A DNA stretch of 64,000 nucleotides. It comes from Branchiostoma lanceolatum (Eukaryota; Chordata; Leptocardii; Amphioxiformes; Branchiostomatidae). A program made the position numbers and the translations under genes. Below, piece by piece: positions 483-27,188 of the stretch (positions are counted from its first letter, which is position 1; the number at the start of each line of letters is the position of its first letter). Below the pieces are notes generated by a model that was not told the origin of the DNA, searched no databases, and saw only the letters and a program-made list of their open reading frames with translations. The DNA is taken from assembly GCF_035083965.1 (NCBI RefSeq), contig NC_089723.1:7029501-7093500 (forward strand). The letters run 5' to 3'.

Positions 483-591
483 GGGTTTCCGTAATATCCA
501 AGCAGATTTACCGGTGCCATGACAGTTGTCCAAAAAATACAAAAAGCTACCGGAATTTTTTTTCCCCCTATTATGTCACCGGTATCCCTAC

Positions 592-708
592 GGAAAGCCT
601 AATCTCCAAGACGATTTTGAGTGTCATAACAGTGGCAAAAAAAAGAAATCCAAACCGCCACCGGGATCATTTGTTTTGCCCCGGCTGTCATTGGAGATTA
701 GGCTTTCC
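592..708. mobile_element. Short TIR element (MITE), in both arms
   Basis: Termini GGAAAGCCTAATCTCC and GGAGATTAGGCTTTCC are inverted complements about 117 bp apart. The same element occurs in the right arm near 24268-24385, so it predates the split of the arms. Confidence 0.65.
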
Positions 709-709
709 T

Positions 710-1082
710 AGCACGTCACCGTAACGTACTGCGCCTGCGCGAAACGCTTCTATGTAATGTGCATAGGGATTCAGAAAAACGTACCATATAAGGTCGGAAA
801 AAATATCTTATGCAACAGGAATAATTATGATGCACCGTTTACCAAACACCCAAAAGAAAACAACAGAAAAGCCGGGTTTCTGTTGGATGTTTGGTAAACG
901 TGGCATCGTAAGTTTTCCCGTTGCATAACTGAATATCTTTTCCGACACAACATTTGGAAGCTATAGACGGAATATTATCCTTATATATGCGAACGCGACC
1001 TTATATGGTACGTTTTTCTGAATCCATATGCACATTACATAGAAGTGTTTCGCGCAGGCGCAGTACGTTCCGGTGACGTGCT
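710..1082. mobile_element. Long-TIR MITE abutting the CYP-A left promoter
   Basis: TIRs of about 100 bp: AGCACGTCACCG, then GCGCCTGCGCGAA, then CGTACCATATAAGG, mirrored at 1000-1082. A nested hairpin (TTTACCAAACA and TGTTTGGTAAA, about 838-900) sits inside. The element ends about 44 bp before the CYP-A ATG. A mirror copy lies upstream of CYP-A right (about 23890-24265). Confidence 0.7.
1051..1080 (+). promoter_or_regulatory. NRF-1-like and CRE-half-like motifs upstream of CYP-A left
   Basis: CGCGCAGGCGCA at 1051-1062 matches the NRF-1 palindrome consensus with one mismatch, and TGACGTG at 1074-1080 resembles a CRE half-site. Both lie inside the right TIR of the 710-1082 MITE and 45-75 bp before the ATG, with no clear TATA box in the expected place. 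The role is inference; similar motifs exist in the far TIR, so they may simply be transposon sequence. Confidence 0.3.
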
Positions 1083-1125
1083 GTTTCACACGCGGCTTAT
1101 TACACTGTTTTACTAGGCCCCCACA

Positions 1126-4100
1126 ATGGCGGATGTCTTCACGTTTCCAGAAGGTTTCCCGTTCACACTCCTGGACGTACCTACCCTACTCGTATTTGCT
1201 GTCACCTTCCTGATATCTGTGTGGTTTCTTAATTTCAAGAGGCCCGGAAACCTAAACCTGCCTCCATCGGTGCCCGGAGGTTGGCCCCTGCTACACCACC
1301 TGCCAACAATGCTTGGGGCGAATTTTCGTCTCCAGTTTGAAAAGTGGGCCAAAGAGCTTGGTGACGTTTACCATGTCAAGTTTTTTGGTAGTGAAAAAAC
1401 GGTTGTGAGTGGATACACGGCTCTCAAGGAACTGATGGAGAATGATGCGTTCTCTACACGGTTGAATGACAATTTGTCCGTTGTAACCGGACTTCATCAA
1501 CCTGAGGGTAGGTGTTGTATTATAGTAGGTGTTGTATGATTCTATCGGTGTGGTCCTCACTCGTTAAAGGCACAGAAATCCCAGAGGAGAGTGTTCTGGT
1601 TCGGCTAATAATATATTTGTCAATCTTTCTGTCCAAACCCATACTTAAGACTTGAAGAAAATGGCGCTCACAAATGGCGCTCTTATAAAATCTAATAACA
1701 ATGTTTGTAACGTGAATCAAGAAGTGTCTGCTAGTGAACACGATAAGTCGAGAACGCCTAGATAGGTTGTTTACATATTTGGTATGTTGGTAGATATGTG
1801 CAAAATGATTTGCATAATTAACGAGGAAAGTTGAAAAATCTCTTGTATTGCATCATCAGTCTGTATAAAAGCTGGCACCTGTCATGTGGTACAGTCGGGG
1901 AGATATTCCCATGGGTCCATGGATTATTCCCAGGGGCATTACTGGTAGTGGTGAAAACACACTGAAAACGCCTCAGATGTAATCTCCAAGCAGATCTCCA
2001 CCGTGCTAAAATCATACAAACTAGCCAGATAAGCTCCAGTCAGCCAGAGAAGTTGTCAGGCACCGTCGGGTTGCAAAAGAAAAAAAAAACTCATTCTGCC
2101 AGTTGGATACGGTCTTTGCAACCGTTGGGTCTGCTTGGAGACTACCTCAGATGGCCTGAGGCTTGTAGCCAGTTTGACTATTGTAACATGTTTGACTACA
2201 GCGGTGGGAACTCAAAGGTAGAGACATAACCTGGGGTGGAACATGCATGCATTGATGGAAGTAAGAGCTAAATAAGTTGAATCTTCACTTCTATGTATGG
2301 ACCCTCACCACCAGCAGTATTGAGGCAGACGAATTAGAAGCTGTAATTTTGTCGTAGCAGAATGACTCGAGTTGTATTCGTGATGTAAAGATTTTATTTT
2401 AGCCAACAAGGAAAACAGCAAATTTGTTTGTCATTCAGAACTTTAGGAGTAATTAACACATGATGGCTTGCTTTCCTTGACTAGACATCGTCTTGGCTCC
2501 TTACGGAAACGTCTTCAAGGAACGACGAAGGTTTGCAACCAGTGTCTTAAGGCGACTGGGAGTGAAGATATGCCGAGGGAGCATACAAGATCAGATTCAA
2601 GAGGAGGCGAGTTCTATTTGTGTCAAGGTATGGGAGCTTACTTTATCTTAGAAGAAACAAATCCACACTACAAAATATTATTTTACTGGCAAACTTCGTT
2701 CAGTGTATCTACCGAAATACATCACCGAAATACACATGAAGATAGGTGAAATCTACCGAAATACAGGATGATTTGATGACGTAAAAGTCATACTGTGTTT
2801 CGGTAGACTTCATTCATCTCCATTGGTTTTTCGTGTATTTCAAATGTGGTTTTTGTGCATTTCGTGTATTTCGCTAAATACACGGACCGTAGCCTGAATT
2901 CAATCAAGCCTCTTGTGACAGCTGGAGTTTGCGTTATACAGACTACACGGACCGGTACTTACATCCAGTGTCAGTTGTAACAAGAGCCATGACGAGCAAC
3001 TAAAACAAGCTGCTAGGGAGCCCAAACCTACATCACGTCTTCATTACATCACAAGCTATGTGCCACCCAAAAATCAAGACCATAGCACGTCCAGGTCAAA
3101 AGATACAAAAAAGGAAGTTCTGCTGCAGTACCAAGGTCACATACCAGGGGGCCCAAAACCTACCTTCAATTTCGGCTTCACAACACCTGCCCACATATCA
3201 AATATCATTGTAATCTAACAAGAGGTTCTTGAGTTGTGCTGACCACAGTAGTGCGGAAACACAAACACACACACACACACACACAGACACACACACAGAC
3301 AGACACATCCAAAACTATATTTCAATTTTTCATGGAGATAATCAACAACTCCTTCCTGTCCGAAAGGTCTCCGGATACAATAAACAGCCGTTTGACGTCT
3401 CCGCCGACCTCTTAACAGCTTCGGGGAACATCCTCTGCGCCCTAGTCTTAGGAAAACGGTTCGACCACGGAGATACCAGATTCCAGCATCTGCAGACGAC
3501 ATTGAAGAACCTTGGAGCTGAGATTGTGAACTGGAGGAGTCCTTTTATCACTTACATTCCTATAGGCGAGTATGCAATTGACTGTACAATGCTAATTGAT
3601 ATTTTGTTAAATATACTGAAGAATAGAGATTGCTGCCAATATGCCAAAATTGTTACTCAAGCAACGGTCAGACGTTTCAAACAGTCAGACGTTTCAAACA
3701 ACATCCGCTATCTTTCATCAGTGACTAAGGAAATATCTGGCACTGATGAAAGATAGCGGATGCTATCTGAAACGTCTGACTGTTTAAATGTATCCAGTTG
3801 CTTGAGTAACTATTTGGCGTATTGCTGCGAACTTTTATCATGTATTCAACTTAAGTACTTAGATAAAAGCAGTTGCTGACCACCCTCCTAAAAGCAGGAC
3901 CCCTATCGCTCGATTCGTCGTTGGCTCGCTCGCGTAGGGGCCCTGCTCTTTAGCCCCGGTAGACACGGTTCTGGCGCCGTCGCCACCAAAACAGTTTCAG
4001 CCAATCAGAGGGTTTGCTAAACCTCATCGCGAGCAAAATCGCAACTGACGTTGGGAAGCTATCAACCAATCGGGTTACGTCTCTCATCATATACTTAAGG

Positions 4101-7100
4101 TTCAGAACAAATTAACCGCCAAATTGTGCTAAATAAGGATAGCTCATTGATTATTCATGAGCAACTGTTAGTAACGTCGCCAGAACCGTGTCTACCGGGG
4201 CAAAAGAGCAGGGCCCCTACGCGAGCGAGCCAACCATTAATCGAGCGATAGGGGTCCTACTTTTAGGAGGGTGTTGCTGACAAGCCGTACACGTAAGACT
4301 CCACCTCTTGTTGATGTGTACGCTGGAACCGGGTTCAGAGGCAAACTTTGATGTCATCAGTTGTCCCATCTTAGAACTGTTCATTCTGCAACACAGTTCA
4401 AGATCCAGCCGCTACACTACGCATCCATTCCAATGAAGTACGGCAGTTCATCCGAGAAGAAATAGATCTACACCGTCTGAACCTTGACCCGGAGAATCCC
4501 CGAGACTTCATAGACTACTGTCTGCTCCAACTGGACCAGCAGGATGGCGGCGGCGCATGGCTGAAGGAAGACAACGTGGTGTACATTGTCCAGGACCTCT
4601 TCATAGCAGGAATAGACACCACGGCCGCCACACTGACATGGGCCATGCTCTACATGATCCTCTACCCGGGGGTACAGCAGAAGGTTAGTAGCTAGTAAAG
4701 CCCCCCCTCTCACTGGAGCGTGCAGCATCGCTGCGGCCGATCGAACTGACAAAGCACTCAACGAATTTCATAGACAAAAAACGAATCTTTTTCAGCTTTC
4801 TGTGTTTTGTTGTCTTTTGGTCATACTTGTAGGTTTTGAATGATATTGCCATTATAAATTCAAGGCTAACAGAAATCCAGTTTAGGACACAGCGACGCCG
4901 CCAGCGTGCCGCGGGTTCAGTGAGAGGGGGGCTTGAGAGAGGATTAGTTTATGGTTTATTACTCAATTCAGTAAATGTACATCAAGACATAAATTATACA
5001 TTTCTTAGTTCATCAGATGGTTATTGCAACAAAATAACTCAATACGGCACCATTTTGCGAATTTCACTAGCAAATATGATCATGAAACTATATATAGCTA
5101 GCTATAAACGTCATAAAAACTCACAAAAACGGACATACGGATATACAAATATTGACTTCGTGTCTACTAAGATCACAAAACCAACTTTTTAATGCCGAAT
5201 GCGAGACAGTTTGTTATCCACTGCCTTCAAAGTCGAAGTCAGACCCCACAACAATAAACGCAATACCTAATATTCTTTTATAGTAGATGATACATTACTA
5301 TTATATGATGGCATTTACTCCATTACATTACCTTTACTTTGGCAATGTTGGTGCGATAGGCTTGCAGGCATGATATTAGTACCGGTACTGTGTAAGAAAT
5401 GATTAGGTACACAAAATTCTGGATCATGAAGTACCGGTACTGTACCGATATAAACTTACACCAAGTATGTGCTTATTTTGTGACTGATCCCCTGACCTCA
5501 TGGCCTCATGCAACACCAAACGTGACCAAAGTGACACCTGGGAACAGTATAACTAATATGCAACAGATCATTCAGGCAGGCCGGGAGTTTTGATAGCAAG
5601 GCCACGGGAGTTTGGAGGTAGTAAACCTAGTTATGTTCTTTGAATAAAGATAGCACATTGAAAACAGTTTATTTGTGTTTCTGTCATTAATGAAGAAGTT
5701 TAGAGGAACACTTGTTAATTTTTCAAATTGTTCAGGTGCAGGTCCGGACCTAAACCTCTGTACCGGTTGGTACCTGTACCTGATGTTACGTTTAGGTACG
5801 CAGCACTACTCTATATGTATTTGTTTATTTGCATTTTCGTATCTACCAGGTCCAGGCTGAACTTGACTGTGTGCTTGGCGCCACCAAACCGAGTCTGGGA
5901 CACAGAGAACAGCTTCCCTACACCACCGCCACCATCATGGAGGCCCAGCGGATCCGCCAAATTTCACCAATGATGCTCATGCGCCAGTCTGATGAGTCAA
6001 CCCGCCTCCGTGGTTTCGACATTGCGAAGGGAACCCAGGTAATAATTGTTATGCTTTGGTCACAATTAGAAAAAGGGGCCCCACCGGGTAGTTTAAGGTG
6101 TTTTTTTTTCATTTTCGTGCTTGATCCCCTACGTAGCCCCCTTGGGACACCCTGTGGCTATCGGGCTATTGTGAGCCACGGCCGGGCCCCGGGTTGACTT
6201 TTACTCGGACTTAAAATCAACCCGGGACCCGGTAACAGATAAACGCCGTGAGCTAACCGTGCGAACACCGAGAGAGGCATCACTTGGTACCCGGCAGTCC
6301 ATCGGGGCAAATTTGTTGCTAAGGGGCCCGGCCGGGACTATACAGTGTAGATACACCCCCTGCGGGCACCGGTGCAAATGTGACCGTAGTATTACTCATT
6401 AAATTGAATTGCAAACTGATTTCTAAACTGATTTATGAGTAAGTGACAGTCTCAACAATAGATTTATGACACAGAGTTTGAAAATGGTACATCACTTATA
6501 TGCCGTATGTAAATAAGCCAGCTGGCTATTCAATGTTCAACCCAACCGTCACTTCAGATTAGATATCTTTGTTTCGCTAACATTTCTTCAGCCCAGTCTT
6601 TATCTGCTAAGTTAACCTCTTTTCCTCCCTATCAATTGACAAAAATACTATAAATTAACAGCCACAGTAAGTTATTAATATGTCGATAAAGACGTCACCC
6701 TTGCTTAACAAAAACTAGAGTTCCACGACCTCATACCTTCGCCAAATGATTTTAACCTTTATGACTGACATATTAGGCGTGTATCTCATCAATTCTAAAT
6801 CATACCAGTTGATTGTCTTAAAATACAACATGTCCAAAGTATGAGCTTAACAAATTATGAGCTAAACAAAGAAGGTTATGCTAATATTTATCATCAATGA
6901 TTCAAATGAGGCCCTTATTAGCCTAATTTGATTCAACGATGTTCACATTCACATAACTTCCCGATGCCATAAATTATTAAATGTATGAAATTGCCGTCAT
7001 TTGCCAGTGTGAAACTATAGAGGTTTCTCATTAAGTATGCAGATTAGGCCCACATTTGCATATGTTCTATCTATCAACATTCCTCTCTTCCTCAGTTACA

Positions 7101-9322
7101 ATTTGAACAGTCATAGCATGGAACAAAGCGGATTTTTGAAGGTGCCTCATTAATTATGCAAATTAGAATCTGATTTGCATAATTATCGTCCAATCATACT
7201 AAGCATCACACAAGCTATCTACATACCAAAAATCATGACCATCCATCAAGGCCATCTTGTTATAGTATTTTCTCATTAATTATGCAAATGAGGTCTTCAT
7301 TTGCATAGTTCATATCAATCAATATTTCTGTCTTCCTCAGTAACATACATCACATGTTTCAGAGTCCTATCATGGAATTTGGCGGATGTTTAAACTTTCC
7401 TCATTAAATATGCGAATTAGGTACTGATTTGTATAATAAGTATCTAATCATGTACAACTTCACTCAAGCTATCTACTTACCAAAAATCATTACCATGCAT
7501 CAAGCCCTTCTGGAGTTATTCCCTTTCAAAGTCAGACACAAAACCTGCTCCTGCAGTTCCAAAAAAGCCGTTAGGGGGCACAAACCCACACAACTTACTC
7601 TCTGTCCAAAGATCTATCTACCACTCAAAAATAAGTTTCATAGCATGTCCAGAACACGAGATATCAAAACAGAAAGTTCTGCTGCAGTAACGTAAGAAGC
7701 CGCTAGGAGGCACAAAATCTAATCGTTTTCAGGTCTCATCAGAACCTACCAACATACCAAATACCAAGACAATCCATCAAGGCATTCTCGAGTTATTCTG
7801 TGCCACTACAGACAAACAAACAAACAAACGCTACCCTCTGCATAACCTTCTCGGCGAAGGTAATGATGACACTTTTTTCTAACCATATAAGCTGATGCTG
7901 AACCTGAGGTCCGTCCACATGGATCCTGTAGCCTGGCCCAACCCGGAAGTGTTCGACCCCAGCCGGTTCCTAGATGCGGACGGCAAGGTTGTGAACAACC
8001 CACCGTCCTTCTTACCGTTCGCTGCAGGTGCGTTTCACCATGTTTCTCTTAATAAGCCCCCCTCTCACGGCACGCTGTCGGCGTCGCTGCGTCCTAAACT
8101 GGATTTGTGTTACCCTTGATTTTATCATGGGAATATCATTCAAAACGTACAAGTATGACCAAAGAGACAACAAAACACACAAAGCTTAAAAAGATTCCTT
8201 TTTGTCGATGAAAGTTTTTGAGTGCTTTGTCCATTCGGTCGACGCCGCCAGCGTGCCGCGGGTACAGTGAGAGGGGTCTTAACCAAGTAACAACTACGCA
8301 TATGTTGGTGTGGGTCAACACTTTTTTTGCAGGCCCCTTCGGCTATCTTACGATTACGTCATAAAACAGTGACAGTCTACTGAAACCAGCTCAGGGGTGC
8401 ACCCGGGGCAGACACCACCTCAAATTTCAAACTATCAACGCCAGAACAGATAACGTTACATACAAATATTCATAGTTCCCCCCGTACCATTCCCCAGTTG
8501 GAACGCCCTACCTGGCACGGTTGTGACGGCTCCCACCAGTGAGTCTTACCATGCCAGGCTGGAGGCCTGCCAGCCTTAGCCTGGGACCTCCCCACCCCCT
8601 ACTTTGCCCCTTGCGGGGTCATCTGGGGGTATTTGAAGTTGAAGTCATGCCCCCACAAAATCCGAAAACTGCATCCCCCGCCCCTTCTTCGCTGTCATTA
8701 CAACAAATGTTGAGCCATCACAGTACAAAAACTGTCACAAGAATTCGAAGCTACACCGGACTTTGAAAGGATTACTTCACCCAGGCCTCGAAATTAACTT
8801 TTCCCCTTACTGTCCCGAAAGTGGATTTCAACTGTCCCGAAAGTGTCCCGAAGTGTCCCAACCTGCGCCAAAGATGTGAACTTAGTGGGGGGTCCCAAGG
8901 TTTCAGAGGTTCATGTTTAGCTTAGAACATATACTCAAGTCTGGACCTGAACCCAAGCCTGGCATGTATGTGTTAGAAATATTTTTTCTGTTACATAACA
9001 GTAGTTCACTGGCGAACCAACTCCTCGGGCATATTATCTGTCTATACGGACAATTTCTACTCTTTCAAGCTACCTCTGGAGCCTGGCAGAGGCAAGGAGG
9101 TTACCTTGGTAGAGATTTATTCTTTTTTTTTGTAATTCAGGCCGTAGGAATTGCTTAGGTGAGCAGCTGGCAAAGATGGAACTCTTCCTTCTGTTCTCGA
9201 CTATCATGCAGCACTTCACACTGAAGGTGCCAGAGGGCGCCCCTACACCATCCACCCAAGGGATCTTCGAGTCACTAAGCATGACGCCCGCACCTTTCCA
9301 ACTTTGTGCCGTTTCTCGCTGA
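1126..9322 (+). CDS. Cytochrome P450, CYP2-clan, left palindrome copy (CYP-A left)
   Basis: A microsomal haem-thiolate monooxygenase of the CYP2 type; substrate unknown. I join seven exons: 1126-1507, 2485-2627, 3367-3565, 4398-4683, 5850-6038, 7892-8027 and 9141-9322, giving about 505 residues, the usual family length. Visible landmarks are an N-terminal membrane anchor (about residues 14-36), a proline hinge (LPPSVPGGWP), I-helix AGIDTT in exon 4, K-helix ExxR as EAQR, FDPSRF in exon 6, and haem loop FAAGRRNCLG split across exons 6 and 7. All junctions are GT-AG except the exon 3 donor, which reads GC (3566-3567). By position count exon 4 is 286 nt, against 287 in the right copy; if real, that is a 1-nt frameshift, but my reading near 4440 is uncertain. 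The start is the first ATG and is shared with the right copy. Introns are packed with MITEs. Family identity is sure; functionality of this copy is less sure. Confidence 0.88.
1980..2144. mobile_element. TAATCTCC-family MITE, left arm only
   Basis: Termini TAATCTCCAAGCAG and CTGCTTGGAGACTA, flanked by CCTCAGATG on both sides (1971-1979 and 2145-2153). The right arm has the uninterrupted site with one CCTCAAATG. The internal sequence is the same family as the element at 56119-56255. Size and target duplication are hAT-like or Mutator-like. Confidence 0.82.
3006..3341 (-). repeat. Interspersed repeat with CA-rich end, left-arm insertion
   Basis: A member of a family that reads GCTGCTAGGGGGCCCAAACC at one end and a CACACA tract plus CATGGAGATA at the other. 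Related copies lie at about 25070-25380, 27561-27990, 36580-36960 and 41387-41765. The right arm lacks it (AACTAAAATTAACAACTCC), so it inserted in only one arm. Confidence 0.75.
3652..3835. mobile_element. Palindromic MITE (ATCCGCTATCTTTCATCAGTG family)
   Basis: Arms around TACTCAAGCAAC, CAGACGTTTCA and CCGCTATCTTTCATCAGTG are mirrored about 3745. The homologous copy in the right arm is at about 20855-21035. Diverged relatives lie at 19662-19765 and 25864-25980. Confidence 0.7.
3881..4273. mobile_element. hAT-like MITE with 8-bp target duplication, left arm only
   Basis: TIR CACCCTCCTAAAAGCAGGAC at the left and its complement at the right (about 80 bp of arm). The target duplication TTGCTGAC lies at 3873-3880 and 4274-4281. 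The right arm shows the intact single TTGCTGAC followed by AAGCCGTAC, an empty site. Confidence 0.88.
4698..4934. mobile_element. GC-rich MITE (AAGCCCCCC / GGGGGGCTT), left-arm intron 4
   Basis: Inverted ends AAGCCCCCCCTCTCACTGG and the complement at 4916-4934, with interior matching the elements at 8054-8282 and 17140-17372. The right-arm intron 4 lacks this element but carries a different insertion at almost the same spot (19400-20105). Confidence 0.72.
6715..7860 (+). mobile_element. 1.15-kb repeat element, left-arm CYP-A intron 5
   Basis: Begins CTAGAGTTCCACGACCTC and ends CTTCTCGGCGAAGG. The interior has several diverged units rich in CATTAATTATGCAAAT and a 3' third related to the GGGGGCCCAAACC repeat family. 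The right-arm intron lacks it. A second copy in the same plus orientation lies at 12644-13794. No coding potential seen. Confidence 0.78.
8054..8282. mobile_element. GC-rich MITE shared by both arms
   Basis: Ends AAGCCCCCCTCTCAC and GTGAGAGGGGTCTT. The mirror copy is at about 17140-17372 in the right arm. Same family as 4698-4934. Confidence 0.7.
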
Positions 9323-9957
9323 TATGTAATTACTGGTTTGCGTAGCAAAACCTTTGTTGGATCCGTTGGCATGTGTGGTGGCCGCCATGTTGAATTTTTG
9401 ACGTCGCTGGGTAGCCATACCATTTCATTAGGAGGGGTGTTTTTTGGGGGTCGCTAGCGTTCTCTCTATTTTTAGCAAATCGACGCACAACTATCACACA
9501 TTCAACTCAAATAAAAAGAAAATTCAATACTAATTCATATTCATAAAAACACCCCGTAATCTCTAAACTAACATAGCGAACCTGAAGTATATGTAGCACA
9601 AATACTTAATTCTATTAGAAAATGAGTAAACAAATCATTACTCCTAGATCGTGTCACAAATGTGAAACATCTTCCAATGTGCTTTTGTGAAGATTAGTCA
9701 TCCAGGAATTAAAGATAATACCTTTAATTCAATCTATACACATAGATTACAATATTGAGAAATACCATGTGTTTCAGATGTCAATCCGGTACTTTCCCTC
9801 ATTTTCTTTGACTGAAGAAAGACGACAACTGAAACGTCTGGTATTTCTCAACAGAAAGCACCATTGATAAATATGTTAGTTCTTCTTAGTATTGTTTTAT
9901 CTTCTTACTTTCACAGAAGTTGTAATAATATTGGCACGAGGATAGAGGTTATACCAC

Positions 9958-10215
<258 letters not shown>

Positions 10216-10608
10216 TGATAATATAAGTTTGTCTATATCATTTAGGTGTATGAAGTAGGGGAACATGTAGGTTGTATGAGTCTATAAAGCTCAGTTCTCT
10301 CTCTGTCGTATAATTTACATTCTATTAAAAAATGGTGTTCATAAGGGCTTCCTTGGAAATCAGTTACATCAATTTGTTAACTGAAGGGACCACCCTAAAG
10401 ATTAATAGATAAATAAATACATGTTCTATTCTATCTAGATTACAGTATTGACAGATACGTTGTTAATTTCATTAGAACTACTTGCGCCTTGCGGCCAGTG
10501 GAACGAAACCGCATTTTAGCGAAGTACATGTACAGTACTATCTTATATGTTGTTGTGTCTATTTATTAGTTATTTTGGTCAATATTACGGTACATTGTGA
10601 CACTGAAT

Positions 10609-10703
10609 ATTGAGTGAGTGAGTGAGTGAGTGAGTGAGTGAGTGAGTGAGTGAGTGAGTGAGTGAGTGAGTGAGTGAGTGAGTGAGTGAGTGAGTGAGTG
10701 ACA
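10609..10703 (+). repeat. (GTGA)n microsatellite, left arm
   Basis: Pure tetranucleotide run of about 23 units. The right-arm counterpart is longer and interrupted. Confidence 0.92.
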
Positions 10704-10822
10704 CTGGCAACACTTAATTCAAAACTAGGCTATGAATATTGACACAAAGGGACCTCCGTCGTGACCTTTTTGGCACTTTATTCATGTTACTAGTCTGGTA
10801 TCACAGGTTTGCGGTTGGTTAA

Positions 10823-11127
10823 GTTAAAAGTTAAAATCCTCCCACACATTATTGATGTATAGGGCGGTGCCCATCTCCGTTTCATAGCCCTGGGCCACAC
10901 TGTGGTGCAATCACTGCAGCAGGGGGCTAGTCCATTGGCAGTGTTTAACTTCCATACTGTTTCATAAGTATGTACCATCTTTATAAAGTCTTTGGTATGG
11001 CTCAATGCGCCTCTTGTCCAGAGTTGTCCTACCTGGGGCTTGAACCCCATTCCTTCTGGTCCAAGTAATTTGAACCAGATGTGGTGAGAGACAGAAGCGC
11101 AGACCACTACACCACAGGGACACCCCC
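10823..11127 (-). mobile_element. tRNA-derived SINE, left arm
   Basis: Mirror of the SINE at 14295-14606, flanked by the same 13-bp duplication (TGCGGTTGGTTAA at 10810-10822 and 11128-11140). Shared by both arms, so it inserted before they diverged. Confidence 0.75.
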
Positions 11128-11310
11128 TGCGGTTGGTTAAAAAGTGAAGTAAATATCATCAGTGACAGAAGGAAATAAGTTGTGTTTTGAGAGGTGTTTT
11201 GCCGGCGTTTGTTACTCCACAAACTCACCCTTCAACGACTTCCACTTAGAGAATGTCGACGTAACTACTAAAGACCCCGAAGGTTACATGGTTTGTTGCA
11301 TGATATGAAA

Positions 11311-12092
11311 CTAACGCGGCATCGCACAGAACTGGAACGGATGCGGCTTCAAGATCAGGCCAAAGACGCCGTCAGTATTTGGAGGAGGAGCGCCCTCTGG
11401 CGTCCTGAATGTGAAGGACTGCAGCAGGGTCGAGAAGAACAGGAAAAGTTCCATCCTGGCCAGCTGCTCACCAAAACACACGCGTCGGCCTGGACATAAC
11501 GAATGCCGAGTAGTAAAACCAGCCAACCGTAGAATAGAATATGTTTCATCAATGCTCTGATCACATACATATAGAAAACAACACGGTGTATTCCGTATCG
11601 CCCCAGGTACCGGCCCGACTGCGGATCGTATCTCGTGTTGTATTTTATTTATGTCATACCCACCCCAAAAAAAAAACATATTTCTATGCGGAATGCGCCA
11701 GAAGTTGGGAGAGTTTTGTGTCCTCGAACCAAAAAATGTAACAACATCAATTCTAACCTTTGGTATTCAAATTTTCGACTGCGGCGCAATCGGCGCACTT
11801 GAAATAGTTACATTCTAAATATTCTATGGAAGCCCGTGTGATACAAGTAGAAACCCGTGTGATACGGAAAATTATCACACCATGCGGAACACCCGTATCG
11901 AAGGTTTTTGTGGTCCGTGTATGACATAAGTTCAATAACAGCATCTGTAAGTCTGATAATTACCTCCTGAAAAAGGCATGAAGGACTCAGGCTTGTTGTC
12001 CCCTCCGCGTCCAGAAACCTTTCGGGGTCAAACCGGTCCGGATCAGGCCAGTAGGCGGGGTCCGTGTGGAGGTAGTGCAGGTTCATCAGCAC
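11311..12092 (-). pseudogene. 3' fragment of a second CYP2-like gene (CYP-B, left arm), exons 6-7 only
   Basis: Two exons corresponding to the last two CYP2 exons: 11964-12092 (residues like [17 protein letters not shown] and FDPERFLD) and 11311-11489 ([16 protein letters not shown], stop TAG at 11311-11313). The penultimate exon is 129 nt rather than 136: a 7-nt deletion after FLDAEG shifts the frame, and the sequence before the donor is also altered. Exons 1-5 are absent because the palindrome centre lies about 45 bp upstream of exon 6. It converges tail to tail on CYP-A left. A non-functional remnant, or half of a gene cut by an assembly join. Confidence 0.82.
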
Positions 12093-14294: not shown

Positions 14295-14606
14295 GGGGGT
14301 GTCCCTGTGGTGTAGTGGTCTGCGCTTCTGTCTCTCACCACATCTGGTTCAAATTACTTGGACCAGAAGGAATGGGGTTCAAGCCCCAGGTAGCACACCT
14401 CTGGACAAGAGGCGCATTGAGCCATACCAAAGACTTTATAAAGATGGTACATACTTATGAAACAGTATGGAAGTTAAACACACTCCACTGCCAGTGGACT
14501 AGCCCCCTGCTGCAGTGATTTCAGCCCAGTGTGGCCCAGGGCTATGAAACGGAGATGGGCACCGCCCTATACCTCAATAATGTGTGGGAGGATTTTAACT
14601 TTTAAC
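14295..14606 (+). mobile_element. tRNA-derived SINE, right arm
   Basis: The head has a pol III A-box-like GTGGTGTAGTGGTCTGC and a B-box-like GGGGTTCAAGCCCC about 60 bp later, then an unrelated body. It is flanked by a 13-bp duplication TTAACCAACCGCA (14282-14294 and 14607-14619), the signature of LINE-mediated insertion. Not a functional tRNA: spacing between the boxes is too long and there is no clear acceptor stem. Confidence 0.78.
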
Positions 14607-14727
14607 TTAACCAACCGCAAACCTGTGATACCAGACTAGTAACATGAATAAAGTGCCAAAAAGGTCACGACGGAGGTCCCTTTGTGTCAATATTCATAGC
14701 CTAGTTTTGAATTAAGTGTTGCCAGTG

Positions 14728-14868
14728 TCACTCACTCACTCACTCACTCACTCACTCACTCACTCACTCACTCACTCACTCACTCACTCACTCACTCACT
14801 CTCTCATTCACTCACTCACTCACTCTCTCACTCTCTCACTCTCTCACTCACTTACTCACTCACTCAAT
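14728..14868 (+). repeat. (CACT)n microsatellite, right arm
   Basis: Interrupted tetranucleotide array with CTCT variants; counterpart of 10609-10703 on the opposite strand. Confidence 0.88.
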
Positions 14869-15231
14869 AATCAGTGTCACGATGTACCGTAATATTGACC
14901 AAAATAACCAATAAATGGACACAACAACATATAAGATAGTACTGTACATGTTTCGTTCCACTGACGCAAGGCACAAGTAGTTCTAATGAAATGAACAACG
15001 TATCTGTCAATACTGTAATCTAGATAGAATAGAAGATGTATTTATTTATCTAATAATCTTTAGGGTGGTCCCTTCAGTTAACAAATTGATGTAACTGATT
15101 TCCAAGGAAGCCCTTATGAACACCATTTTCTAATAGAATGTAAATTATACGACAGAGAGAGAACTGAGCTTTACAGACTCATACAACCTATGTTCTTCTA
15201 CTTCATACACGTGAATAATATAGACAAAATT

Positions 15232-15282
15232 ATATTAACATCATCATCATCATCGTCATCGTCATCATCATCATCGTCGTCG

Positions 15283-15325
<43 letters not shown>

Positions 15326-15440
15326 AATTATTATTATTATCATTATCACCATCATCATTATTATTATTATTATCATCATTAGTATAATTATCATCATCAT
15401 TATCATCATCATTATCATCAGTATCATCCTCAATATTATC
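15232..15440 (+). repeat. (ATC/ATT)n microsatellite, right arm
   Basis: Mirror of 9958-10215 but shorter, with CGT triplets near the start. Confidence 0.88.
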
Positions 15441-16086
15441 ATTATACGTGGTATAACATCTATCCTCGTACCAATATTATTACAACTTCTGTGAAAGTAA
15501 GGAGATAAAACAATACTATTAAAGAAGAACTAACATATTTATCAATGGTGCTTTCCGTTGAGAAATACCAGACGTTTCAGTTGTCGTCTTTCTTCAGTCA
15601 AAGAAAATGAGGGAAAGTACCGGATTGACATCTGAAAAACCTGGTATTTCTCAATATTGTAATCTATGTGTATAGATTGAATTAAAGGTATTATCTTTAA
15701 TTCCTGGATGACTAATCTTCACAAAATCACATTGGAAGATGTTCCACATTTGTGACACGATCTAGGAGTAATGATTTGTTTACCCATTTTCTAATAGAAT
15801 TAAGTATTTGTGCTACATATACTTCAGGTTTGCTATGTTAGTTTAGCGATTACGGGGGTTTTTTATGAATATGAATTGGTATTGAATTTTCTTTTTATTT
15901 GAGTTGAATGTGTGATAGTTGTGTGCCGATTTGTTAAAAATAGAGAGAACGCTAGCGACCCCCAAAAAACACCCCTCCTAATGAAATGGTATGGCTACCC
16001 AGCGACGTCAGAAATTCAAGATGGCGGCCACCACACATGCCAACGGATCCAACAAAGGTTTTGCTACGCAAACCAGTAATTACATA

Positions 16087-19000
16087 TCAGCGAGAAACGG
16101 CACAAAGTTGGAAAGGTGCGGGCGTCATGCTTAGTGACTCGAAGATCCCTTGGGTGGATGGTGTAGGGGCGCCCTCTGGCACCTTCAATGTGAAGTGCTG
16201 CATGATAGTCGAGAACAGAAGGAAGAGTTCCATCTTTGCCAGCTGCTCACCTAAGCAATTCCTACGGCCTGAATTACAAAAAAAAGAATAAATCTCTACC
16301 AAGGTAACCTCCTTGCCTCTGCCAGGCTCCAGAGGTAGCTTGAAAGAGTAGAAATTGTCCGTATAAACAGATAATATGCCCGAGGAGTTGGTTCGCCGGT
16401 GAACTACTGTTATGTAACTGAAAAAATATTTCTAACACATATATGCCAGACTTGGGTTCAGGTCCAGACTTGAGTATATGTTCTAAGCTGAACATGAACC
16501 TCTGAAACCTTGGGACCCCCCACTAAGTTCACATCTTTGGCGCAGGTTGGGACACTTCGGGACACTTTCGGGGCAGTTGAAATCCACTGTCGGGACAATG
16601 TTGGGACAGTAGGGGGAAAAGTTAATTTCGAGGCCTGGGTGAAGTAATCCTTTCAAAGTCCGGTGTAGCTTCGAATTCTTGTGACAGTTTTTGTACTGTG
16701 ATGGCTCAACATTTGTTGTAATGACAGCGAAGAAGGGGCGGGGGATGCAGTTTTCGGATTTTGTGGGGAAATGACTTCAACTTCAAATACCCCCAGATGA
16801 CCCCGCAAGGGGCAAAGTAGGGGGGGAGGTCCCAGGCTAAGGCGGGCAGGCCTCCAGCCTGGCACGGTAAGAGTCACCGGGGGAGCCGTCGCAACCGTGC
16901 CAGGCAGGGTATTCCACTGGGGAATGGTACGGGGGAAATATGAATATTTGTATGTATCTGTTCTGGCGTTGATAGTTTGAAATTTGAGGTGGTGACACCC
17001 CCGGGTGCACCCCTGAGCTGGTTTCAGTAGACTGTCACTGTTTTATAACGTAATCGTAAGACAGCCGAAGGGGCCTGCAAAAAAGTGTTGACCCACACTT
17101 GACCAAGAACCAACATATGCGTAGTTGTTACTTGGTAAAGACCCCTCTCACTGGACCCGCGGCACGCTGGCAGCGATCGAATGGACAAAGCACTCAAAAA
17201 CTTTCATCGACAAAAAGGAATCTTTTTAAGCTTTGTGTGTTTTGTTGTCTCTTTGGTCATACTTGTACGTTTTGAATGATATTCCCATTATAAAATCAAG
17301 GGTAAAACAAATTCAGTTTAGGACGCAGCGATGCCGCCAGCGTGCCGTGAGTCCAGTGAGAGGGCGGCTTAAGAGAGACATGGTGAAACGCACCTGCAGC
17401 GAACGGTAAGAACGACGGTGGGTTGTTCACAACCTTGCCGTCCGCATCTAGGAACCGGCTGGGGTCGAACACTTCCGGGTTGGGCCAGGCGACAGGGTCC
17501 ATGTGGACGGACCTCAGGTTCAGTATCAGCTTATATGGTTGGAAAAAAAATGAGTCATCATTTTTGGTAAGCAAGGGTGACGTCTTTATGGACATATCAA
17601 TAACTTACTGTGGCTGTTAATTTATAGTATTATTGTCAATTGATAGGGAGGAAAAGAGGTTAACTTAGCAGATAAAGACTGGGCTGAGGAAATGTTAGCG
17701 AAACAAAGATATCTTATCTGAATTGACGGTTGGGTTGAACATTGAATGGCCAGCTGGTTTATTTACATACGGCATATAAGTGATGTACCATTTTCAAACT
17801 CTGTGTCATAAATCTATTGTTGAGACTGTCACTTACTCATAAATCAGTTTAGAAATCAGTTTGCAATTAAATTTAATGAGTAATACTACGGTCACATTTG
17901 CACCGGTGCCCGCAGGGGGTGTATCTACACTGTATAGTCCCGGCCGGGCCCCGTAGCAACAAATTTGCCCCGATAGACTGCCGGGTACCAGGTGATGCCT
18001 CTCTCCATGTTCGCACGGTTAGCTCACGGCATTTATTTGTTACCAGGTCCCGGGTGGATTTTAAGTCCAAGTAAAAGTCAACCCGGGGCCCGGCCGTGGC
18101 CCACAATAGCCACAGGGTGTCCCAAGGGGGCTACGTAGGGGATCAAGCACGAAAGTGAAAAAAAACAACCTTAAAGTACCCGGTGGGGCCCCTTTTTCCA
18201 ATTGTGACCAAAGCATAACAATGATTACATAATTACATGGGTTCCCTTCGCAATGTCGAAACCACGGAGGCGGGTAGACTCATCAGCCTGGCGCATAAAC
18301 ATCATTGGTGAAATTTGTCGGATCCGCTGGGCCTCCATGATGGTGGCGGTGGTGTAGGGAAGCTGTTCTCTGTGTGCCAGACTCGGTTTGGTGGCGCCAA
18401 GCACACAGTCAAGTTCAGCCTGGACCTGGTAGATACGAAAATACAAATAAAAAAATACATATAGAGTAGTGCTGCGTACCTAAACGTAACAGGTACACCC
18501 TGTACCTGTATCAGGTACAGGTACCAACCGGTACAGAGGTTTAGGTCCGGACCTGCACCTGAACAATTTGAAAAATTAACAAGTGTTCCTCTAAACTTCT
18601 TCAATCATGACAGAAACACAAATAAACTGTTTTCAACGTGTCAGTATCTTTATTCAAAGAACATAACTAGGTTTACTACCTCCAAACTCCCGTGGCCTTG
18701 CTATCAAAACTCCCAGCCTGCCTGAATGATATGTTGCATATTAGTTATGCTGTTCCCAGGTGTCGCTTTGGTCACGTTTGGTGTTGCATGAGGCCATAAG
18801 GTCAGGAGATCAGTCACAAAATAAGCACATACTTGGTGTAAATTTATATCGGTACAGTACCAGTATTTCCGGTATTTTGAACCTGTACCTAATCATTTTT
18901 TACGGTACAGTACCGGTACACAGTATCGGTACGCAGCACTAATTTGCAAGATCATGCCTGCAAGCCTATCGCACCAACATTGCCAAAGTAAAGGTAATGT

Positions 19001-22000
19001 AATGGAGTAAATACCATCATATAATGATAATGTATCATCTACTATGAAAGAATATAAGGTATTACGTTTATTGTTGTGGGGTCCGACTTCTACTTTGAAG
19101 GCAGTGGATAACAAACTGTCTCACATTCGGCATTAAAAAGTTGGTTTTGTGATTTTAGTAGACACGAAGTCAATATTTGTATATCCGTATGTCCATTTTT
19201 GTGAGTTTTTATGACGATTATAGCTAGCTACATATATAGTTTCATGATCATATCATGTACACAGTGAAATTCGCAAAATGGTGACGTACTGAGCTATTTT
19301 GCTGCAATAACCGTCTGATAAATTAAGAAATGTATAATTTATGTCTTGATGTACATTTACTGAATAAAGTAAAAAAAACATTAACTAATTCTCTCTTACC
19401 ACCCTCCTTTATCAGCGCTGAAACCCGCTCGGGAAATGCTCGGCAAACCCTCCCGGTCTCAGCCCTGATCTTTTGAACGGAGATTTTGGGTTCAGGCTGG
19501 AGACGTCACTGACAGTTGCTCATAAATAATTAATGTGCTAGCCTTATTTGGCACAAACAGTCGTTGGCTGCTCATGAATAATCAAGTAGCGATGTAAGGC
19601 GTAAGCTGATTGGCTGATACGTTGATGAAGGTTAGACATCCAGGTAATAAGATACGCCAAAAATAATTACTCAAGCAACTGGATAAGATTTTGAAACAGT
19701 CAGACGTTTCAGACAGTATCCACTGTCTTTCGTCAGTGACTAACGATAGGACTGAGAACACCAGGTTTTATACCAAAACTCTGAATAGATATGTTAATGA
19801 GGTAAAGACAATTTAGGATGTCTTGAAGTAGTCTTTAAAAAGAAGATTAATTCAAGACAAAGTTTATGCCAATAGTTCAATTAGCTACTGTTGTTCTAGT
19901 ACAGTAACTAAATGTTGCTTGTCCGGGGGTGATTGGCTAATAGCTTACCAGCGTCCTTTGCGGCTTTGCTCAAAATGAGCGTTAGCAAACCCTCTGATTG
20001 GCTGAAAGCTGTTTGGTGGTGACGTCGCCAGAACCGTGTTCAGGGGCTCGGAAGGGCAGGGCCACTATGGGAGGTAACGAACATATCGGGTCTGCTGGGA
20101 GGATGTCTCTTACTAGCTACTAACCTTCTGCTGTACTTCCGGGTAGAGTATCATGTAGAGCATGACCCACGTCAGTGTGGCGGCCGTGGTGTCTATCCCT
20201 GCTATGAAGAGGTCCTGGACAATGTACACAACATTGTCTTCCTTCAGCCAGGTGCCGCCACCATCCTGCTGGTCCAGTTGGAGCAGACAGTAGTCTATGA
20301 AGTCTCGGGGATTCTCCGGGTCAAGGTTCAGACGGTGTAGATCTATTTCTTCTCGGATGAACTGCCGTACTTCATCGGAATAGATGCGTAGTTTCGCGGC
20401 TGGATCTTGAACTGTGTTGCAGAATAAACAGTTCTAAGATGGGACAACTGATGACATCAAAGTTTGCCTCTAAACCCGGTTCCAGCGTACACATTAATAG
20501 GAGGTGGAGTCTTACGTGTACGTAGCCTGGAAACCATACCATCGGGGGCTCCCCGATATCTATACGGCGCTGGGAGTGACCTCCGCCCGCCCAGACAGCA
20601 TAGTCCGCTCGGGGTGTGTTTATGGCCTTGGATTAGATTAGGGCGGAACTCTCTATGGCAGCTTAAGTAGAAAGGCTGCAAAATTCTACATGGCAGCTAA
20701 GTAGGCTGACAGAAACGAATCGAATAAAGCAGACTGGGCCCGGTAAAGCCGACCCCTAGAGACTGGGACCAGGCTAACGTGTACGGCTTGTCAGCAACTG
20801 ATTTTATCTAAGTTGAATGCATGATATAAGTTAGATGACTACTCGCAGCAATACGCCAAAAATAGTTACTCAAGCAACTGGATACATTTAAACAGTCAGA
20901 CGGTTCAGATAGCATCCGCTATCTTTCATCAGTGCCAGATATTTCCTTAGTCACTGATGAAAGATAGTGGATGTTGTTTGAAACGTCTCACTGTTTAAAA
21001 CATCTATCCAGTTGCTTGAGTAACTATTTTTGGCGTATTGGCAGCAATCTCTATTCTCCAGAATATTTAACAAAATATCAATTACCATTGTACAGTCAAT
21101 TGCACACTCACCTATAGGAATGTAAGTCATAAAAGGACACCTCCACTTGACAATCTCAGCTCCAAGGTTCTTCAATGTCGTCTGCAGATGCTGGAATCTG
21201 GTATCTCCGTGGTCGAACCGTTTTCCTAAAACCAGGGCGCAGAGGATGTTCCCCGAAGCTGTTAAGAGGTCGGCGGAGACGTCAAACGGCTGCTCATTGT
21301 ATCCGGAGACCTTTCGGACAGAAAGGAGTTGTTAATTTTAGTTGCTTGGCATGGCTCTTGTTACGACTGACACTGGATGTAAGGACGGGTCCGTGTATTT
21401 AGCGAAATACACGAAATGCAAGAACCACATTTGAAATACACGAAAAACTAATGGAGATGAATGAAATCTACCGAAACACAGTATGACTAATTTTACCTAT
21501 GAAGTTTACTCATCAAATCATCCTGTATTTCGGTAGATTTCACCTATCTTCATGTGTATTTCGGTGGTGTATTTCGTGTATTTCGGTAAACACACTGACC
21601 GAAGTTTTCTAGTAAAATAATCTTTTGTAGAGTGGATTTGTTTCTTCTATGATGAAACAAGCTCCAATACCTTGACACAAATAGAAGTCGCCTCCTCTTG
21701 AATCTGATCTTGTATGCTCCCTCGGCATATCTTCACCCCCAGTCGCCTTAAGATACTGGTTGCAAACCTTCGTCGTTCCTTGAAGACGTCTCCGTAAGGA
21801 GCCAAGACGATGTCTAGTCAAGGAAAGCAAGCCATCATGTGTTTATGTACTCCTAAATTTCTGAATGACAAACAAATTTGCTGTTTACCCTGTTGGCTAA
21901 AATAAAATGTTTAAAAAGACCATTTTGCGAGCATCAATGCAAAACATGAAAATCCTAAAAACATACGTTCCACTCCAGGTTCTGTCACTACCTTTGTGTT

Positions 22001-23850
22001 CCCACCACTGTTGTCAAACAGGCCAGGCCATTTGAGGGGTTTTCGGTGTGTTTTCACCACTACCAGTAACATCCCTGGGAATAATCCATGACCCCATGGG
22101 AATATCTCCCCGACTATACCACATATCAGGTATTAGCTGTTATAGAGACTGATGATGCAATACAACAGATTTTTAAACTTTCCTCATTAATTTTGTAAAT
22201 CATCTTGAGATTTTGCACATATCTACCGACATACCAAATACGAAGACAACCCATCTAACGTAACATGACCTATTTACGTGCGGGAGTAGTTTACGTCCAG
22301 ATTGGGTCATGTACACATGTCGCGGTGTATTATGCCAAAGCCTGTTCTCATGAGAAACAAAGAACGTCATAAGTATGATCCTCAGCCATTTCTCTCTATC
22401 ATACAAAACATTTAAAAGGGTTTACGTCCAACGACATAACAGAATAAGCTCCTGAACCAGTAACAACAAGTTGCACGGAAGCGTCATGCATGACGCATTT
22501 CATATGTAATTCGACACCACGTATTCCATCATGTTTGTCTAAGTTACACGATAGCTAGTATCTTTTAAAAGTAGCTGACGTTAAACCTTTCTTTGATATG
22601 CAGACTATCCATGGTGATTCGAGGTTTGAAACTCTTGCCAGTTTTAGGAAGGTTTGATACAACCTAGCGACCCCGCTCAGATGATACATTTTTGTACGAC
22701 ATAACATCATGGCCATGCGTTTATCACGTGAACGCCACGTGCTGCCGATTTCGTGGAAATTCACAATACAAAAATTGTTTTCTTCCATCTCGTCGGGCAA
22801 GCGGACGGACAAACATAGTGACTTTACTGTCATTTGTCTGTAGACTACTTTCGACATTTACTGTGCATTTTTTTCCGGTCTATGTTCTTCAAGCATAGCG
22901 CTAGAAGGGAAAATACTGAGGTGGACGATAAAGGGTGAGCCTAGCACAATTCTACACCATATACCCCAGTATAAATATATGCTCGCACGGCGTTGAACAG
23001 GAGGAGAAAAACTTACAGACCATGCATTTTCTTGTTAGAAGAGCTGATATTTCTACCCATGGGTTAAACTTTTGGCTCTGTCCGCGTGGTTTCAGGATAA
23101 ATAACGTATTTTAATAAATCGGACGTTAACTGGTCATGATACGTTAGGCGTTCTCGACTTATCGTGTACACTAACAGACACACAGAAACACGCCCGGTAA
23201 AATATAAACTTGATGAAGGTAACTATTCACTCACACGTTACAAACATTATTATCAACATCGGACCTAGATTTTCTAAAAAAATCTCTAAGAGTGCCATTT
23301 TTTCAAGTCTTAAGTATGGGTTTGGACAAATATTGAAAAAAATAAGAAAGATTGACAAATATATTATTAGCCGAACCAGAACACTCTCTGGGGTTTTCTG
23401 TGCCTTTAACTAGAGAGGACCACTCGGGGAGAATCATACAACACCTACTATAATACAACACCTACCCTCAGGTTGATGAAGTCCGGTTACAACGGACAAA
23501 TTTACATTCAACCGTGTAGATAACGCATCATTCTCCATCAGTTCCTTGAGAGCCGTGTATCCACTCACAACAACAGAGATTTCATCACCAAAAATCTTGA
23601 CATGGTAAACGTCACCAAGCTCTTTGGCCCACTTTTCAAGCTGGAGACGAACATCCGCCCCAAACATTGTTGGCAGGTGTTGTAGCAGGGGCCAACCTCC
23701 AGGCGCCGATGGGGGTAGGTTTAGGTTTCCGGGCCTCTTGAAATTAAGAAACCACACAGATATCAGGAAGGAGACAACAAAAACGAGTAAGGTAGATACG
23801 TCCAGGAGTGTGAACGGGAAACCTTCTGGAAACGTGAAGACATCCGCCAT
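16087..23850 (-). CDS. Cytochrome P450, CYP2-clan, right palindrome copy (CYP-A right)
   Basis: Inverted paralogue (or allele) of the gene at 1126-9322. Exons in transcript order are 23466-23850, 21671-21813, 21112-21310, 20125-20411, 18237-18425, 17394-17529 and 16087-16268. They sum to 1521 nt (506 residues) with every phase consistent, so this copy looks intact. It has the same anchor, AGIDTT, EAQR, FDPSRF and FAAGRRNCLG motifs; the haem-ligand cysteine is in exon 7. The exon 3 donor is canonical GT here. The exon 5 donor is preceded by T rather than G (codon CAT against CAG in the left copy), so it is weaker. Exon 1 has one extra codon (EISVVVSG against EKTVVSG). Predicted role: NADPH-P450 reductase-dependent oxidation at the endoplasmic reticulum; substrate cannot be read from sequence. 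Confidence 0.92.
18471..18942. mobile_element. GTGCTGCGTACC-family TIR element, right arm
   Basis: Ends GTGCTGCGTACC and GGTACGCAGCAC, with GGTAC-rich subterminal sequence. Diverged left-arm counterpart at about 5380-5805. Same family as 56789-57267. Confidence 0.65.
19400..20105. mobile_element. hAT-like element with 8-bp duplication, right arm only
   Basis: Ends CACCCTCC and GGAGGATG, with target duplication TCTCTTAC at 19392-19399 and 20106-20113. Carries an internal fragment of the ACTCAAGCAACTGG repeat (about 19662-19765). The left arm has a single GTAAGAGAG-like site region, occupied instead by the unrelated MITE 4698-4934. Confidence 0.78.
20522..20776. mobile_element. TAGCCTGG-family hAT-like MITE, right arm only
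   Basis: Ends GTAGCCTGG and CCAGGCTA. Target duplication ACGTGTAC at 20514-20521 and 20777-20784. The left arm has one uninterrupted site (CCGTACACGTAAGAC, opposite strand). Related termini recur at 47623 and 50294. Confidence 0.86.
22258..23144. mobile_element. 887-bp TIR element with TA duplication, right arm only
   Basis: Ends ACGTAACATGACC and GGTCATGATACGT. TA flanks both sides (22256-22257, 23145-23146). The left arm shows the empty CCTAGATAGG site near 1757. Tc1/mariner-like target choice; no transposase recognised, so non-autonomous. Confidence 0.8.
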
Positions 23851-26138
23851 TGTGGGGGCCTAGTAAAACAGTGTAATAAGCCGCGTGTGAAACAGCACGT
23901 CACCGGAACATACTGCGCCTGCGCGAAACGCTTCTATGTAATGTGCATATGGATTCAGAAAAACGTACCATATAAGGTCGTGTTCGCATATATAAGGATA
24001 ATATTCCGTCTATAGCTTCCAAATGTTGTGTCGGAAAAGATATTCAGTAATGCAACGGGAAAACTTACGATGCCACGTTTACCAAACATCCAACAGAAAC
24101 CCGGCTTTTCTGTTGTTTTCTTTTGGGTGTTTGGTAAACGGTGCATCATAATTCTTCCTGTTGCATAAGATATTTTTTCCGACCTTATATGGTACGTTTT
24201 TCTGAATCCCTATGCACATTACATAGAAGCGTTTCGCACAGGCGCAGTACGTTACGGTGACATGCTAGGAAAGCCTAATCTCCAATGACAGCGGGCAAAA
24301 CAAATGATCCCCGTGGCTGTTTGGATTTCTTTTTTTTCGCCACTGTTATGACACTCAAAATTGTCTTGGAGATTACGCTTTCCGTAGGGATACCGGTGAC
24401 ATAATAGTGGGGAAAAAAATTCCGGTAGCTTTTTGTATTTTTTGGACAACTGTCATGGCACCGGTAAATCTGCTTGGATATTACGGAAACCCGATATTTT
24501 GTGATCAGGCTTAACTACCTAGTAAAGGGAACAGATTTTGGGTGTGGGTTCCTATTGGGCACGGCACGAAAAGTGAATTTTACCAATAGATAAATGCCTG
24601 GAAGTACAAGATTAACATGGCAGTATTGGCATGGTTGCTACAGACTTATTACCGGACAGTTATTGCTATAAGTAGAAAATCCCTGTTTTGGTGCAGTGTT
24701 GGTGGTGATGTTGCATTATCATATAGCCAGATAGTTGACCAATCAAAAGTCCCCATTTCATATCGGTTGTGACCTAATAACGTCATAGAAGTGACACAAG
24801 TGGCGAATGATGAATCTCAAGTGGTGATTTTATTCGGTGGTTAAAGCAAATCACGACACTTTATTAGGACAATTGATGACACTATAAATATTATAGAAAT
24901 ATTATAGAAATATCATGACACTATATACATCTCTGGGCGGGTCATTAACCCTTGATTAACCCTTAATTAATCCCTTAGTTAGTCCATTCATAAATTGCAC
25001 TGTCTACTTTTTCTATGTATCTTTTCATATTGCATGTGTCCTCGGGCAAGAACTTGCAATAACTAACAAGCTGCTAGGGGGCCCAAACCTACACCACTTC
25101 TTCATTACATCACAAGCTATCTGTCATCAAAGAAATCAAGACCATAGCAGGTCCAGGTCAAAAGATACAAAAGCGGAAGTTCTGCTGCAGTACCAAGGTC
25201 ACATACCAGGGGGCCCAAAATCGACCTTGAATTTCGGCTTCCCAACACCTGCCCACATACCAAATATCATTGTAATCCATTGAGAGGTTCTTGAGTTATG
25301 CTGACTACAGTAGTCCGGAAACACAAACACACAGACACACACACAAAACTAAATCTCCATTTTTAATGGAGATAATAAACCTCGACATTATCAATGTTTC
25401 ACCCTCAACGGGCAGCTGTGTAAATTGTGTAGCTCCATTATGTAAATCTTTGTCTACAAACAATCCCTCTGATGTGATTCTTTCTGCTCGGCTACAGTAC
25501 TTACAAACAGAGACCTGATACTGGAAAAACAATCAAACGTTTTTCTTTCCGACTTACGTTCAATAGATTACGATATGAATCTTTGAATCAGTCTAATTCT
25601 TTGAATGAATCCTATATGACTATTTGGGAGAGGGGTATATACCGAATGCTGGGGATGAGGGTCATCGTCCTGTAAAAATTGACTCTAGGATGACGGTGGT
25701 ACCACAGAGCACTGTAAGAATGCATAGGTAGTTTGGCCTGATCTTGATGCCGCATCCGTTCCAGTTCTGTGCGATGCCGCGTTAGTTTCATATCGGTCTC
25801 ACCATACAACACACAATATAACCTTTGAAAGTAAGGCCTTATGCCTATGGCGAAGGTAAATAGCAGTTACTCAAACAGCTGGATATGATTTTGGAAACGC
25901 TCAGACGTTTCAAGTAGCATCCGCTACTTTTCGTCAGTGACACTGAGCAAGATTTGTCGAACAGCAGGTTTTTAACCACGAACTATGAATTGATATGCAA
26001 ATAAAGTGAAGACAATATATAGTTATATAGTCTAACTGGGCAAAGTCAAGTCAAGGTTGACAGCTTCAATTTATGTTTTTTAAGTCTTGTTCTGGTATTT
26101 TTTGTGACTGTCTATATGGATATCTAATAAATTAGGCT
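23851..26138. other. CYP-A right upstream region and right palindrome flank
   Basis: Contains mirror copies of the MITEs at 592-708 and 710-1082, the arm end at 24492, an interspersed repeat (about 25070-25380), the CYP-B scrap (25732-25785) and a palindromic MITE relative (about 25864-25980). About 24493-25060 shows nothing recognisable. Confidence 0.55.
25732..25785 (+). pseudogene. CYP-B C-terminal scrap (third copy)
   Basis: Eighteen codons matching the end of CYP-B exon 7 (FGLILMPHPFQFCAMPR and a TAG stop), followed by 3' flank also similar to that after CYP-B (GTTTCATATCG). Nothing of the haem loop precedes it within the preceding 150 bases. It lies about 1.2 kb outside the right end of the palindrome, on the plus strand. 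It marks either an older duplication of the CYP-B end or the place where the rest of the cluster once joined. Confidence 0.7.

Positions 26139-27153: not shown

Positions 27154-27188
<35 letters not shown>

Follow-up and report, generated by a model that had tools for sequence, protein, structure and literature searches.

Mirrored cytochrome P450 genes in a long inverted repeat of the lancelet Branchiostoma lanceolatum, a probable inverted segmental duplication

Introduction

The stretch of DNA analysed here, referred to as the window, comprises 64,000 nucleotides of the lancelet Branchiostoma lanceolatum (assembly GCF_035083965.1, contig NC_089723.1, positions 7,029,501 to 7,093,500 of the forward strand). 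It contains a large palindrome whose arms each carry a complete cytochrome P450 gene, here called X, and the two 3'-most exons of a second P450 gene, here called Y. We put the probability that the palindrome arose by real inverted segmental duplication, on what is probably chromosome 2 of B. lanceolatum, at roughly 0.8. A sequence-only reading of the window had posed a choice between a real palindromic locus and a misjoin of two haplotypes. That was the right question, and evidence at the sequence level leans to a real duplication.

Genes and Arms of the Palindrome

Self-comparison of the window bore out an inverted repeat, which spans 483 to 24492. The palindrome and its genes consist of the following features.

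483..12136, plus strand: arm 1, collinear inverted match to 24492-12156
12156..24492, minus strand: arm 2, collinear inverted match to arm 1
12137..12155, no strand: spacer at the palindrome centre, 19 bp by direct reading
1126..9322, plus strand: X1, complete CYP2-type P450 gene, 7 exons, 505 amino acids, by landmark splicing
1126-1507, 2485-2627, 3367-3565, 4397-4683, 5850-6038, 7892-8027, 9141-9322, plus strand: X1 exons
16087..23850, minus strand: X2, complete mirrored copy, 7 exons, 506 amino acids, by landmark splicing
23850-23466, 21813-21671, 21310-21112, 20411-20125, 18425-18237, 17529-17394, 16268-16087, minus strand: X2 exons
11314..12092, minus strand: Y1, last two exons of Y in arm 1, exon 8 being 7 nt shorter than in Y2 and frameshifted
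12200..14114, plus strand: Y2, the two final exons of Y in arm 2, each with an open frame, and a mobile-element insert in the intron between them
25732..25825, plus strand: tail of a third Y-like copy, 1.2 kb beyond arm 2, comprising the final 16-17 codons and the 3' flank

The locus had been described as holding two mirrored P450 genes, which is correct for X1 and X2 and incomplete in that it passes over the Y exons in each arm. Both X copies match the Pfam family p450 (PF00067) over profile positions 1-461 of 462 (E 8.7e-99 for X1 and 4.4e-97 for X2). P450 proteins carry the haem-binding motif FxxGxRxCxG, the I-helix motif AGxDTT and the K-helix motif ExxR. The strings FAAGRRNCLG, AGIDTT and EAQR are present in both X1 and X2. 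All six introns of X2 have GT-AG borders, as do five of those of X1, the remaining one (intron 3) having a GC donor. The two proteins share 93.3% identity across 506 aligned positions and are sisters with support of 100/99 in a tree of 18 rows, made up of X1, X2 and 16 proteins chosen among 143 collected. Six near-full-length lancelet relatives are 70.6-76.3% identical to X1/X2. X belongs to a multi-copy lancelet CYP2-type subfamily, with related genes on several B. lanceolatum and B. floridae chromosome records; the present case differs in that two copies stand in mirror image. NCBI names for the matches of X vary between 2J6-like and 2U1-like (among the best 120 of 220 matches listed), and a PDB search with a composite query of X exons and the last Y exon, rather than with full X, found human 2D6 as its best match. 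Judged by their family, X1 and X2 are presumably two microsomal CYP2-type mono-oxygenases.

The X copies differ with a nonsynonymous divergence (dN) of 0.033 and a synonymous divergence (dS) of 0.082 (NG86), and dN/dS is 0.40-0.50 across three methods. By part of the gene, the paired dN and dS values are 0.070 and 0.079 in exon 1, 0.026 and 0.095 in exons 2-5, and 0.008 and 0.054 in exons 6-7. These exon-wise values indicate conservation of the catalytic haem-binding C-terminus and drift or relaxed constraint in the N-terminal exon. The 641 aligned columns directly upstream of the X start codon hold only 13 mismatches. The NCBI models of both copies are truncated, at 264 and 347 amino acids against the 505 and 506 obtained by re-splicing. 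The 264-residue protein (P0013) is identical to X1 from part of exon 1 through exon 4, with three codons of intron added, and the 347-residue protein (P0007) is identical to X2 without the remainder of exon 1 and without exon 2. Upstream of X in both arms is a pair of 87-bp inverted repeats (710-796 / 996-1082 and 23894-23980 / 24180-24266), possibly a small mobile element that predates the duplication.

Exon 8 of Y measures 131 nt in Y1 and 138 nt in Y2. The Y exons are nearer to other lancelet CYP2-type proteins than to X, and of the 143 proteins compared, P0028 (91.3%), on another chromosome record, comes closest to Y2. No intact parent gene of Y was identified among these 143 proteins, a set smaller than the full proteome, which was not searched. 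No 5' exons of Y turned up in the window, where only the last two are seen on each side, and under a genuine duplication the Y of this locus would be dead. A search of the right flank for Y matched only the tail fragment at 25732-25782; this third Y-like tail beyond arm 2 implies that the surrounding region has undergone further P450 rearrangement. The list of open reading frames had also hinted that the last exons of X and Y form one interleaved gene pair across the centre. This was rejected because the C-terminal exons of X are present separately in both arms (9141-9322 and 16268-16087).

Divergence Between the Arms

Arm 1 is 11,654 bp long and arm 2 12,337 bp. Single matching blocks score up to 3965 bits in the self-comparison, which places their similarity far above chance. 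The arms were aligned block by block, in place of a global MAFFT alignment that had misaligned the insert-bearing parts and the centre. Eight collinear blocks gave 8,669 aligned columns with 360 mismatches (4.15%, or 95.85% identity; 202 transitions and 158 transversions) and 66 gap events. Substitutions and gaps together make 426 events, or 4.9% with large inserts excluded. The between-arm divergence of about 5 percent first judged by eye is right, as is the lancelet origin that was proposed with it. This count does not include a further collinear block (1759-1979 / 22257-22029; 229 columns with 26 mismatches, identity 85.2%), nor three weaker matches that lie out of register between 3741 and 4247. 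The remainder of each arm is arm-specific sequence, including several large inserts. The description of the arms as near-perfect and matching over about 12 kb therefore does not stand: some 8.7 kb of the 11.65-kb and 12.34-kb arms aligns, with 4.15% substitutions, 66 gaps and large inserts. Both arms also contain a trinucleotide-type microsatellite of unequal length (9960-10226 and 15229-15446), whose frames read as a methionine run or as aspartates.

Two of the arm-specific inserts are copies of one element.

6714..7862, no strand: insert of ~1.15 kb in arm 1 only, with an empty site in arm 2 at 17561/17562
12641..13797, no strand: the same 1.15-kb element in arm 2 only, with an empty site in arm 1 near 11643

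The two copies are 91% identical and sit at different clean sites with little or no target-site duplication. This 1.15-kb mobile element was inserted independently in the two arms.

It had been suggested that arm-to-arm gene conversion keeps the arms alike, as in ampliconic palindromes. Mismatch density is indeed uneven (variance/mean 2.19 in 200-column windows), the block at 7862-11645 has 3.0% mismatch against 4.3-8.1% in the other seven, and the last X exon has 1 mismatch in 182. The longest identical run, 228 columns, nevertheless lies within the range of 500 shuffles (mean 151, maximum 247). Divergence is also equal in coding (63/1,518) and non-coding (297/7,151) columns of the block alignment, at 4.15% each; a codon-wise alignment of X1 and X2 gives 65 mismatches in 1,515 coding positions. 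Palindrome arms of the human Y chromosome exceed 99.9% identity (PMC3723533), a likeness far from that of arms with 4.15% divergence and many large arm-specific inserts. The human P6 palindrome (PMC3723533) resembles the lancelet locus in its large inverted arms, each with a gene, and differs from it in that its arms are under 0.1% apart against 4.15% here, where no convincing conversion tracts are found. The suggestion is thus unsupported, and we give very little credence to an ampliconic-type palindrome at this locus.

The Centre of the Palindrome

The spacer is short, as first reported, and measures 19 bp (12137-12155) rather than 21. On either side of it the two arms pair without mismatch for exactly 30 bp, and this stem is predicted to fold with the spacer into one hairpin. 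Within the centre, CACAATTTCT (12126-12135) and AGAAATTGTG (12147-12156) form a further 10-bp inverted repeat with a loop of 11, placed off the axis of the palindrome and followed by a 10-bp tandem copy of AGAAATTGTG. A slipped fold-back would leave such a repeat and tandem copy. We regard this as suggestive only, because 39.5 kb of flank contains 40 start positions of 10-bp inverted repeats whose loops measure up to ~40, or ~1 per kb. The centre sits in the Y intron that precedes its last two exons, which we take to be intron 7 from the usual CYP2 exon order.

Across the 19-bp hinge, downstream of each X, are the last two Y exons of the other arm in sense orientation. The end of X exon 5 and the start of Y exon 8 both fall at a codon boundary, so their phases are compatible. 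The palindrome could on this basis be a functional arrangement, in which read-through splices a Y-type haem-binding C-terminus onto X or a long hairpin RNA silences the family. We find this scarcely credible. An AATAAA signal lies ~188 nt past the stop in both X copies, and Y1 is frameshifted. Among the 143 proteins, 13 have an X-like N-terminus, and all 9 of these that include a C-terminus carry the X type, none the Y type.

Genuine Duplication or Joined Haplotypes

The arms could be two alleles of one X-Y locus that were joined head to head inside Y during assembly, the second X then being false. Substitutions at 4.15%, many indels and insertion differences are typical of lancelet haplotypes, and Y is cut at the identical point on both sides. 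Amphioxus heterozygosity is known to cause alleles to be assembled as separate loci (PMC9673378). Against such a misjoin, no N occurs in the 64-kb window, so the join is not a scaffold gap, and a gap-free version would need reads that turn around between two haplotypes at one point. An ordinary fold-back read artefact was likewise rejected: arms from one molecule would be identical, and 4.15% divergence is observed. The arms end abruptly at their outer limits, and the left outer flank (1-482) matches no other DNA of the window, within a length of 482 bp in which an insertion could hide homology. Abrupt ends and an unmatched left flank favour duplication because alleles joined head to head should remain homologous outward. 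Weak protein matches in the left flank were taken as chance (best E 0.007 among the best 10 matches, with 120 P450 queries).

Comparison with alleles leans the same way. The 31-mers common to both arms amount to 24.2%/22.1%, which is below average alleles if the published figures were obtained at k=31. Another B. lanceolatum assembly, klBraLanc2, has k-mer completeness of 61.36% and 61.30%, and of 99.84% combined, from which a haplotype sharing of ~37% is derived (PMC11907188). The 6.7% of differing residues between the X1 and X2 proteins seems high for alleles. P0013 (X1) and P0007 (X2) match residue for residue on one shared NCBI record of 40,414,955 bp, and a mitochondrial transcription termination factor 4 (mTERF4)-like protein is encoded near 50-52 kb of the window on that same 40,414,955-bp record. 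We consider a haplotype misjoin unlikely.

Several points weigh against a genuine duplication. The published klBraLanc2 figures are taken to be for k=31, and at k=21 the arms share 33.0%/30.4%, near ~37%, which leaves a much smaller gap. The k-mer figures imply an allelic divergence of ~3.1% (k=31) to 4.6% (k=21), indels included, and the 4.15% between the arms is allelic in size. In B. floridae, divergence between haplotypes is 8.6% at the VCBP2/5 locus with each indel taken as one change, and 6-7% genome-wide (PMC2632668). The annotation of X1 and X2 on one record is not independent and probably derives from the window's own assembly. The visible left flank is only 482 bp. No counterpart of X1/X2 from another B. 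lanceolatum assembly was among the matches listed (best 120 of 220; best 120 of 1006), which may reflect absence, non-annotation or short fragments. Finally, interrupted palindromes with a short spacer are unstable and rare in natural genomes (PMC10766186).

A genuine duplication would most likely be fairly young. It may still be a copy-number polymorphism, because its divergence is of the same order as allelic divergence in B. lanceolatum.

Proposed Origin of the Palindrome

Under a genuine duplication, a replication or repair error inside Y, immediately 5' of the last two exons, would have reversed direction, probably where a short inverted repeat lay. About 12 kb would then have been copied in reverse, mirroring the neighbouring X and reducing Y on either side to its two final exons. 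The arms have since diverged by substitutions, indels and independent mobile-element insertions, and both X copies retain open frames and the P450 motifs. The palindrome may have survived because its arms are no longer symmetric, owing to mismatches and the insert at 12641-13797. On this account X, one member of a P450 family with many copies, was doubled by an inverted duplication within its own locus.

In current models, inverted duplications arise by template switching at short inverted repeats, as in origin-dependent inverted-repeat amplification (ODIRA) and related processes (PMC10766186). The lancelet palindrome shares with ODIRA-type duplications its mirror arms and tiny spacer, and also a loss of adjacent sequence, here the 5' part of Y that is missing from the window; the short inverted repeat at its junction is a possible further likeness. 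It differs in being old enough for 4% divergence and in having no third copy or second junction in the 64-kb window. No third copy of X is present in the window, and the ODIRA model permits its secondary loss. The amphioxus VCBP2/5 locus (PMC2632668) is comparable as a cluster of lancelet genes in which inverted repeats occur, copy number varies and haplotypes carry large inserts of their own; it consists of immune-type genes in B. floridae, whereas a complete P450 gene is mirrored here.

Other Features of the Window

The right flank contains further genes and repeats.

27020-27433: low-complexity stretch
28809-29148: tandem array with a period of ~14 bp (self-match offsets)
31286-44450, minus strand: TRIM-like RING/B-box/NHL gene in three direct tandem copies, whose aligned blocks are ~88-93% alike
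44988-46213: tandem repeats, period ~75 bp (self-matches at successive 75-bp offsets)
46672-47040: ankyrin-repeat stretch (Pfam)
49922-52646, minus strand: mTERF4-like gene
53940-54428: glutaredoxin-domain stretch (Pfam)

The middle TRIM-like copy (37686-39710) is open over 674 amino acids, and each of the outer two is split over two reading frames. Three exons within 52046-49922 match the mTERF4-like protein P0124, with differences at exon edges only, and homology of this gene extends upstream of the start of the NCBI B. lanceolatum model (228 amino acids). Rfam at gathering thresholds and ARAGORN gave no matches.

Significance

If the palindrome is false, P450 genes at this locus are counted in excess in the reference sequence of an important chordate outgroup. 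In either case, the truncated NCBI models of X1 and X2 merit re-examination. If it is real, a natural long palindrome with a 19-bp spacer would have survived to 4% divergence in an animal chromosome despite its expected instability, and the locus would show a P450 gene being doubled while its neighbour was destroyed.

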